Shown here: positions 3,886 through 5,521 of the stretch, one piece after another
How positions within the stretch are numbered: position 1 is the stretch's first letter
Layout: each line of letters opens with the position of its first letter
Virus record (IMG/VR): IMGVR_UViG_3300043548_000220
Location: 1-20,511 of that record
Source: a virus
Reading direction: 5' to 3' (one strand)
DNA length: 20,511 nt
The notes under the pieces: model-generated
The model's database searches: none
What the model was told of the DNA's origin: nothing
Seen by the model: only the letters and a program-made list of their open reading frames with translations
Program-made: the position numbers and the translations under genes

Positions 3886-3915
3886 ATCATAGAACGATTA
3901 GTAAACTGTTTGCAA
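3886..3915 (-). promoter_or_regulatory. Leftward promoter of the recombination operon
   Basis: Minus strand: TTGCAA (3915-3910), 18-nt spacer, TATGAT (3891-3886; 5 of 6 to the sigma70 -10). The predicted start is near 3879, about 35 nt before the first leftward ATG. The -35 is part of TTGCAAACAGTTT, repeated exactly in inverted orientation at 4357-4369. An alternative reading places a weaker -10 (TACTAA) directly after AACAGTT, as at other copies of the element. Confidence 0.55.
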
Positions 3916-3921
3916 GAGGTA

Positions 3922-3951
3922 TTTACATCTTTTTATCAATTATTTGATATT
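3922..3951 (+). promoter_or_regulatory. Possible promoter for the structured RNA
   Basis: TTTACA (3922-3927; 5 of 6), 18-nt AT-rich spacer, GATATT (3946-3951; 4 of 6). It points into the helix-rich region, with a predicted start about 3958. The match is moderate and the region is AT-rich, so this is tentative. Confidence 0.35.
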
Positions 3952-4330
3952 CCCCTACAACTTGTGGGGTTAATCTATCTTGGACGGTATTGGAAACCGT
4001 ATACAATTTCGTGGTCGGAAGTGACGCTCCGGTGTTTGGCAGACAAAAATAGTACCCAGAACCCTTTAGTGGGGGCTTGTTGCCATCGTTTGTCTGCCCG
4101 ATGCTGGCCTGTCAAGCCCAAGTCTCCACTAAAGGGTTTTTCCATTTCCGACTGCGCGAAACGCCAGCTAAGTCTAAAAGGCGGGGATGGGATAGAGGCC
4201 GTGGAATAAGTAGCCACGGAGCCGGGGTCGACACCCGCTATATCCGTCTAGTAGTGGGCATGGCTACCTAGAGTACCGTTGTTACGGGATACATCTCCAT
4301 GTAAGTCTGGCAAAAACTTGTTTTTGCTAG
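3952..4330 (+). ncRNA. Candidate structured non-coding RNA with a pseudoknot
   Basis: A stretch of about 380 nt without a credible gene is dense in helices. Main helices: 3952-3959/3963-3969; ACGGT 3984-3988/ACCGT 3996-4000; 4060-4072 with 4126-4138 (13 bp perfect) continued by 4073-4079 with 4113-4119 (7 bp); an inner stem 4084-4088/4099-4103 whose 10-nt loop (4089-4098, TTTGTCTGCC) is the exact complement of 4038-4047; 4199-4204/4214-4219 inside GCGGG/CCCGC 4181-4185/4234-4238; 4247-4254/4264-4272; 4276-4279/4284-4287; and 4307-4316/4321-4330 (10 bp with one G-U, CTTG loop). The G-U pair slightly favours the + strand. It lies between divergent promoters. It may be a large phage RNA (GOLLD- or ROOL-like in spirit), a long leader, or an origin structure; the exact ends are uncertain. 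Confidence 0.5.
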
Positions 4331-4356
4331 TTGGTCGGTCTTTGGGCCTTTAGGGA

Positions 4357-4383
4357 TTGCAAACAGTTTCTAAAACAGATAAT
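4357..4383 (+). promoter_or_regulatory. Rightward early promoter
   Basis: TTGCAA (4357-4362), 15-nt spacer, GATAAT (4378-4383; 5 of 6), with a predicted start near 4390 just upstream of the CGGAG ribosome site of the first rightward gene. The -35 belongs to the 13-bp inverted repeat. The 15-nt spacing is short, so an activator may be needed; the alternative -10 TCTAAA (4369-4374) follows AACAGTT as at other copies. Confidence 0.45.
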
Positions 4384-4403
4384 CTACCCAAAACGGAGAT
4401 TTT

Positions 4404-4873: not shown

Positions 4874-5144
4874 CCTACGCAAAGCGGCAGAGCAGGCCAT
4901 AGAAGCGATTATGCACGGCGGCGCGAAAGAACAGGCCGCAGCAGTTTACGAATTACGCCAAGCACTACAAGAAAAGCCGCCAGTTAAGACCTACTGCGGT
5001 GGTAAGCCTAACTACTGCACACCTGAAGAGCGTGAATGGGTTGGGTTGACAGAGGAAGATGCAAAGGAATTGTATGAATATTCTGCAACTGAATGGCAAT
5101 TTGCACAGGCGATTGAAGCCAAATTGAAGGAGAAGAACACTTGA
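4866..5144 (+). CDS. Hypothetical 92-residue phage early protein
   Basis: The ATG at 4866 is preferred over upstream in-frame starts because it overlaps the end of the preceding gene, as is usual here. The N-terminus (MTDLRKAAEQAIEAIMHGG) is a helix; the middle holds KTYCGGKPNYCTPEEREWVGLTEEDA and the end is EATEWQ/AIEAKLKEK-like helix. From memory this layout (Ala-rich helix, then 'GLTEEDA') recurs in small phage proteins of unknown function. The two Cys residues could be structural. The stop overlaps the next gene's TTG. Confidence 0.65.
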   Translation: MTDLRKAAEQAIEAIMHGGAKEQAAAVYELRQALQEKPPVKTYCGGKPNYCTPEEREWVGLTEEDAKELYEYSATEWQFAQAIEAKLKEKNT

Positions 5145-5521
5145 CTGACTTTGAGACCTTCTGGAGGGCATGGCCTAAACGGGTCGCAAAAGGGGATGCC
5201 CGTAAGGCGTTCCAGCAAACTGAGCATATTCGACCCCCTTTGGTAGAGTTATTAGAGGCCATAGAAGCCCAATCCCGGTCGGATCAATGGCGCAAGAACG
5301 ATGGTCAGTTCATCCCTTACCCTGCGACATGGCTACGTCAGGAAAGGTGGTCTGACGAGCTAAAGGTCACCCTGCCGGGGGTGGTTCAGGGCAAGGAGTG
5401 GCATGAGACTTGGGCAGGGATTCAGGCTAAAGGCCGAGAGCTTGGCATCGATGAGAGCCAGTTCACCCACCCGCAAGACTTTAAGAGCGCGGTCATGCGC
5501 GGTTCGGTGAAGGTCGCATGA
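5141..5521 (+). CDS. Replication-protein-like (C-terminal O/DnaT-like domain), TTG start
   Basis: A 126-residue protein starting at TTG 5141, which overlaps the previous stop (TTGA), with AAGGAGAAG about 7 nt upstream. The segment FWRAWPKRVAKGDARKAFQQ followed by FIPYPATWLRQERWSDE matches the pattern found at the C-terminal end of many phage replication (lambda O-like) proteins. The usual N-terminal DNA-binding domain is absent, so it may be a stand-alone helicase-loader-like or accessory piece. It precedes modification and recombination genes in the early operon. The homology is by recalled pattern and the role is inferred. Confidence 0.55.
   Translation: MTDFETFWRAWPKRVAKGDARKAFQQTEHIRPPLVELLEAIEAQSRSDQWRKNDGQFIPYPATWLRQERWSDELKVTLPGVVQGKEWHETWAGIQAKGRELGIDESQFTHPQDFKSAVMRGSVKVA

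Follow-up and report, generated by a model that had tools for sequence, protein, structure and literature searches.

A predicted noncoding RNA domain with a hypervariable pseudoknot helix in freshwater bacterial viruses

The locus and the fold of the RNA domain

The source DNA is the IMG/VR record IMGVR_UViG_3300043548_000220, a 20.5-kb virus record which was analysed at its full length of 20,511 nt (the window). According to its protein domain matches (Terminase_3, P22 portal, P22 coat) the window represents a P22-like phage. The RNA element described here is flanked on one side by leftward recombination genes (SSB, exonuclease) and on the other by rightward early genes; the latter include a cytosine methylase and, at 5141-5518, an O-like replication initiation protein. 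The GC skew of the window changes its sign near 4000. No conserved ORF covers the element. The ORF at 3910-4209 was rejected as a gene because the lengths of the P2 loop (see below) differ among relatives by non-multiples of three.

A 13-mer, TTGCAAACAGTTT, is present at 3903-3915 and again at 4357-4369, ahead of both divergent genes, where it overlaps the -35 boxes of promoter-like sequences (TTGCAA-18-TATGAT leftward; TTGCAA-17-TAATCT rightward, 4357-4385). The sequence AAACNGTTT is a palindrome that recurs in relatives, and the 13-mer site resembles a shared operator.

Relatives were collected in IMG/VR, first by scans with neighbouring proteins and afterwards with a short DNA pattern; this gave 49 extended type-A sequences, 40 of them distinct and fully parsed. 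In addition, 16 RNAs with little sequence similarity to type A share its architecture (types B to E; loci carry L or G numbers). The features of the window are the following:

3980-4007, + strand: predicted sigma70-type promoter, TTGGAC (3980-3985), 16 nt, TACAAT (4002-4007)
4014-4141, + strand: predicted noncoding RNA domain of about 128 nt, from its predicted start to the U-tract, supported by conservation and covariation among 40 RNAs of type A and 16 of types B to E
4014-4019 with 4028-4033, + strand: P1 hairpin, loop 4020-4027, covarying across types
4038-4047, + strand: 5' strand of the pseudoknot helix P2, hypervariable (complementarity, covariation, divergence)
4060-4079, + strand: 5' strand of the 20-bp helix P3, pairing with 4119-4138 (covariation, 99.1% of cells paired)
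4084-4103, + strand: P4 hairpin, CATCG/CGATG with a 10-nt loop, invariant in type A
4089-4098, + strand: 3' strand of P2, identical with the P4 loop, hypervariable (complementarity, covariation, divergence)
4106-4118, + strand: P5 hairpin, GGC-CTGTCAA-GCC, whose loop (4110-4114) can pair with the P1 loop (4022-4026)
4119-4138 and 4137-4141, + strand: 3' strand of P3 and U-tract, intrinsic-terminator-like, with a G-run and T4 or more in every type
4146-4152, + strand: 3' strand of P0, TTCCGAC, alternative partner of 4014-4020, covarying
4153-4345, + strand: module 2a, another conserved region that is probably structured RNA; relatives are 95-99% identical here, and one hairpin carries a compensated change

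The segment 4038-4047 (GGCAGACAAA) is the exact reverse complement of 4089-4098 (TTTGTCTGCC), and the latter forms the entire 10-nt loop of the hairpin CATCG (4084-4088) / CGATG (4099-4103) inside the 13-bp stem 4060-4072/4126-4138. The coordinates, already given in a preliminary description of this DNA, proved exact, and its statement that the complementarity exceeds chance agrees with a rough calculation (about 50 upstream positions x 4^-10, i.e. ~5e-5) and with the folding of 4016-4150 in comparison to shuffled sequences (z = -4.5 on the + strand, -2.5 on the - strand). The enclosing stem had been drawn there as 13 + 7 bp. We retain the 13 bp, whereas the 7 bp, which made use of CAAGCCC at 4113-4119, are replaced by a continuous 20-bp helix P3 (4060-4079/4119-4138). 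This helix contains two G-U pairs, is about 5 kcal/mol better and is backed by covariation at columns 61/118 and 62/117. It also leaves 4106-4118 free for P5, a hairpin that the more divergent types have as well. P4 has a different sequence in type D RNAs and is still paired there (e.g. CTAGTT/AACTAG in L167).

The loops of P1 and P5 are complementary in all groups, UGACR/UGUCA in type A and UGGCA/UGCCA in types B to E. By this comparison, which rests essentially on one compensated difference between the groups, the two loops can pair and their contact would belong to the fold of the domain.

In each of the 51 distinct loci, which cover all types, a -10 box of the form TAnnnT precedes the first G of GUCGG/GUCAG by 6 or 7 nt; random registers within the upstream DNA of these loci show the pattern at a rate of 4.9%. 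In the window, the inferred transcription start is therefore placed at 4014, and the predicted RNA from there to the U-tract has a length of ~128 nt. Conserved G-U pairs (columns 13/102, 53/126, 62/117 and 64/115) would be A-C on the opposite strand and, together with the fixed spacing of the -10 box, point to an RNA encoded on the + strand. P3 is followed by a U-tract in every type. A generic terminator scan did not detect the stem 4119-4141 with its U-tract, because the loop is large.

The 5' strand 4014-4020 has two partners, the P1 strand 4028-4033 and the P0 strand 4146-4152 just past the U-tract. Both helices covary: across types the own P1 strands form 6.02 bp versus 4.62 ± 0.23 bp when permuted, and the own P0 strands 5.39 bp versus 4.05 ± 0.29 bp (0/3000 permutations in each case). 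P0 pairs include GUCGGAA/UUCCGAC, GUUGGAA/UUCCAAC (L140), GUCAUCGG/CCGAUGAC (L049), GUCAGAU/AUCUGAC (L176) and GUCGGC/GCCGAC (L327). In loci with an insert behind the U-tract, which is an ORF in L121 and L166 and a hairpin in L175 and L320, the P0 strand is found again on the far side of the insert. P1 and P0 share one strand and a U-tract follows P3, which is the arrangement of mutually exclusive helices around a terminator as expected for an attenuator. The predicted promoter, the P0 helix 4014-4020/4146-4152, the loop pairing 4022-4026/4110-4114 and the hypervariability of P2 go beyond the preliminary description.

Covariation and hypervariability of the crossing helix

In nearly all parsed type-A RNAs a segment ahead of P3 is the complement of the P4 loop, with differing sequences: besides GGCAGACAAA/TTTGTCTGCC in the window we found GGCGCGAAC/GTTCGCGCC (L088), GGCTCAGAC/GTCTGAGCC (L087), GGCGATTACC/GGTAATCGCC (L116) and GCTAGGA/TCCTAGC (L117). 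The mean length of the own Watson-Crick helix is 8.42 bp versus 3.99 ± 0.24 bp when the loops are permuted among the RNAs (26 distinct loops; 0/20,000). In a 28-row alignment 52 cells are changed on both sides (four central pairs) and 95% of the cells are paired. The covariation score is 0.486 versus 0.143 ± 0.020 after shuffling, and a slid register reaches at most 0.116. Compensatory changes among the relatives also occur in P1, P3 and P0. The preliminary description had proposed that the helices cross to form a pseudoknot and had named the lack of compensatory changes in relatives as the result which would speak against it; this test was run and the pseudoknot passed it. Judged by covariation, P2 is a real crossing helix and is predicted to form in the RNA. 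Exceptions are L094 with one mismatch and L109, which is badly paired; they may have arisen by recombination or be intermediates. One copy was found in each of the 11 type-A phage records which were searched as a whole, and weak matches on the opposite strand fall on the same place.

The sequence of P2 varies to an extent unlike the remainder of the domain. Two dozen RNA pairs have zero differences at 102 aligned positions outside P2 and the linker, and yet up to 8 of 8 P2 core positions differ. Per site, the P2 core diverges by 0.62 on average, compared with 0.09 elsewhere and 0.10 in P3, and among RNA pairs that are at most 3% different elsewhere the P2 core divergence is still 0.61. Because alleles such as GGCACGAAC recur in independent assemblies (L090, L093, L100, L104, L105), this variability is not assembly noise. 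The idea that divergent RNAs draw their P2 cores from a small common set was not supported, as the sharing is what composition predicts (21 cores, p = 0.22). An antisense target of P2 in the own genome was likewise rejected, since 7-, 8- and 9-mers of P2 are not enriched there (p = 0.75, 0.65 and 0.51).

Covarying helices normally drift slowly, but P2 is near saturation between otherwise identical RNAs, and this calls for diversifying selection on an RNA-RNA contact. The hypervariability suggests that P2 is a virus-specific lock or identity tag. It is conceivable, and we put it forward with reserve, that P2 is kept paired and at the same time diversified as an identity code, which would block cross-pairing between near-identical co-circulating phages, the RNA being a self/non-self system controlling early gene expression or RNA assembly. 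P2 makes it possible to test directly whether phages recognise one another by RNA, or whether an arms race is acting on an RNA fold.

The wider family, downstream modules and neighbouring genes

Types B to E follow the same plan: a GUCRG start, P1 with the loop UGGCA, a crossing helix, P3, a late UGCCAAG-like loop, and a G-run with U-tract. The own crossing helices of these 16 RNAs have a mean of 8.94 bp versus 5.29 ± 0.35 bp when permuted (0/20,000). The type-A covariance model finds type D unaided (L167, E = 7e-6; L176, E = 5e-5) and gave a weak lead to type E (L071, L058; E = 0.03-0.07), which was then confirmed by its architecture. Because types A, B and C occupy the same site in phages sharing the flanks of the window, the pseudoknot domain is taken to be exchanged as a cassette. 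A second pair of complementary segments lies beside P2 in type C (L089/L169/L170, GGAAAGATGA/TCATTTTTCC) and in type B (L097/L106, GAAACCAA/TTGGTTTC), suggesting a two-part crossing helix in these RNAs.

Rfam, searched at gathering and permissive thresholds, contains no credible match to the domain. Annotated phage records searched with the intergenic region or the RNA, and plasmids searched for the RNA, gave short low-complexity matches or none. A loose type-A pattern has 83 matches in bacterial genomes, none of which showed on inspection the flanking sequence and terminator of the family. The nearest annotated phage (MW202674, terminase 72% identical) is without a recognisable copy, and therefore the RNA is accessory. 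Literature searches yielded nothing on the pseudoknot RNA or on the Betaproteobacteria-1 RNA discussed below. We therefore rate the domain as new, a previously uncatalogued RNA family in freshwater bacterial viruses with an unusual evolutionary signature. The claim of novelty would shrink if its function proved to be ordinary attenuation.

Module 2a follows the domain in the window. Its own fold is not unusually stable there (z = -1.0), and elsewhere it is replaced by other structured modules. In total, 66 downstream stretches comprise 22 of module 2a, 15 of module 2b and 12 of RF02932 (Betaproteobacteria-1) or resembling it in BLAST; the others are different or unclassified. RF02932 was confirmed by its covariance model as the following module in L117, L124, G004, G007, G008 and G009, and in L117 (7505-7623) the match begins after the U-tract. 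It is distinct from the pseudoknot domain itself, and its model has no match in the window. The Betaproteobacteria-1 RNA thus gains a structural context, as it follows the pseudoknot domain in several phages. RF02932 is also found in ~1-2% of the Burkholderiales genomes sampled, apparently without the pseudoknot domain; a search with model R1 did not find the domain upstream of the Betaproteobacteria-1 RNA in these genomes. Module 2b (L050:3729-3957 and ten related loci) has 220-265 nt, double changes at 21 of 36 predicted pairs and no Rfam match, and on this comparative evidence is a second uncatalogued, predicted structured RNA.

In L098 (4188-4954), ~800 bp with a gene for an HNH endonuclease take the place of the second module, which looks like the insertion of a homing element beside the RNA. 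Small ORFs without Pfam match are located between the terminator-like stem and module 2, or inside module 2, in L121, L166, L112 and L118. The ATG of the ORF in L121/L166 directly follows the U-tract, with a possible Shine-Dalgarno sequence AAGGGG inside P3.

At 25 of 30 loci, replication genes of two unrelated kinds are found downstream of the RNA and in the same orientation: an O-like initiator in 13/30 and a DEAD-type helicase in 12/30. At the remaining 5/30 no replication gene of these kinds was seen in the sequence examined: G003 has a Toprim/DnaB protein, and L171, L176, L137 and L150 fit neither kind (L137 and L150 are near contig ends).

Possible functions and comparison with known systems

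By comparison among the relatives, 4014-4141 is the 5' domain of a predicted phage noncoding RNA with the crossing helix P2, a P1-P5 loop contact and two alternative partners for its 5' end. Among the functions considered, the most likely, tentative as this judgement is, would be a cis-acting structured leader of the early/replication transcription unit with conditional termination, in which P2 is a phage-specific lock. Transcription would begin at 4014. Part of the transcripts would stop at the U-tract and yield a ~130-nt RNA with P1 formed; others would read through, with P0 replacing P1, into the second structured RNA and on toward the replication genes, and the RNA would thereby set early gene expression. 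P2 would be the lock helix that holds the terminator domain together, with a sequence diversified between phages so that an RNA would pair with itself but not with those of related phages infecting the same cell.

We prefer this leader because P1 and P0 exclude each other, a U-tract is present and the RNA precedes two unrelated replication modules; the start motif present at every distinct locus and the saturation of P2 between otherwise identical RNAs lend further support. In L121/L166, where the ORF starts right after the U-tract, read-through must occur if this ORF is expressed. However, the next gene in the window has its own promoter-like sequence (4357-4385), so that read-through is not needed there. 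The P3 loop is also large for an efficient terminator, and the loci without a visible replication gene speak against a leader as well. Least explained by the leader model is the hypervariability of P2, for which attenuation alone fails to account.

In the main rival explanation, the pseudoknot domain and module 2 would together be a larger ornate RNA of 340-450 nt that forms a homo-oligomer, with P2 as an intermolecular loop-junction contact whose variability keeps the assemblies phage-specific. P0 indeed links the pseudoknot domain with module 2, module 2b has a structure of its own, and the RNA occurs in lake phages. The loop-junction pairings that covariation revealed in GOLLD and ROOL, which are RNA-only homo-oligomers, were shown to form between molecules (PMC12286853). 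On the other hand, a U-tract conserved between the two domains points to termination, module 2 is swapped for unrelated RNAs while the first domain stays, and by estimate P2 is geometrically possible within one molecule too. We regard such an oligomer as rather doubtful.

Somewhat less probable still is a free, trans-acting early RNA of ~130 nt, directed against a host defence or regulating the host or competing phages; the recognition element under diversifying selection would then be P2 or its strands. The predicted promoter and terminator-like end, the early position, and cassette exchange combined with hypervariability would fit such an RNA. It has, however, no complementary target elsewhere in the same phage genome (a host target is conceivable), the P0 helix ties it to downstream sequence, and its shared orientation with the replication genes would be left unexplained. 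That a transcript primes or licenses replication as an origin RNA seems improbable: replication genes are constantly nearby and the GC skew changes sign near the element, but the same RNA is used by two unrelated replication systems, and a relative with the same kind of replication gene is without it. A DNA-level inverted-repeat element (cruciform or mobile cassette), to which the P0 arms resembling short terminal inverted repeats and the swapping of modules would correspond, or else a chance or assembly artefact, is highly improbable and already disfavoured by the G-U pairs that would be A-C on the other strand, the fixed distance of the -10 box and, for the artefact, the recurrence of P2 alleles in independent assemblies.

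With its inferred start and end and a model that finds relatives, the domain is testable in a laboratory host, and the preferred leader can be set beside several known phage and plasmid systems. The window proteins scanned, a part of the ORFs, include no reverse transcriptase, the gene of which would be adjacent to a retron RNA. ToxI-type antitoxin RNAs of type III toxin-antitoxin systems are pseudoknotted small RNAs, which the domain resembles, and are present as tandem repeats next to a toxin gene; here no tandem repeats were found and no toxin match among the neighbouring proteins scanned. The packaging RNA of phi29 is a small phage RNA with a covarying loop pairing that is possibly intermolecular, and to this extent similar. 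In contrast to it, our domain is located at replication genes, ~6.7 kb from the terminase in the window, which has no match to the Rfam packaging-RNA model.

Antisense copy-control and c4-type RNAs (ColE1 RNAI, CopA, P1/P22 c4) have allelic loops that diversify and lie in early or replication control regions, just like the domain described here. The domain differs from them in that the complement sits in the same RNA, and the Rfam model for C4 has no match in the window. The HK022 put antiterminator RNAs and attenuator leaders are structured leaders before early genes with a terminator-like element. The likeness to the domain is one of description, with no sequence relation seen, and to our knowledge a pseudoknot and hypervariability are not part of these systems.

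The likeness to large structured phage RNAs seen in the preliminary description holds insofar as the domain is part of a larger structured RNA region; it does not extend to membership in GOLLD, ROOL or another Rfam family. The Rfam check proposed there gave no family match, and at the gathering level neither the window nor any of 13 related loci matched the GOLLD or ROOL covariance models. No tRNA is found near the RNA in the window. Unlike GOLLD and ROOL, the pseudoknot RNA is much shorter and has a predicted promoter, a U-tract and the alternative pairing of P1 and P0. It shares with them that it is a phage-borne, multi-domain structured RNA with a loop-junction pairing and a less conserved 5' part (PMC12286853).
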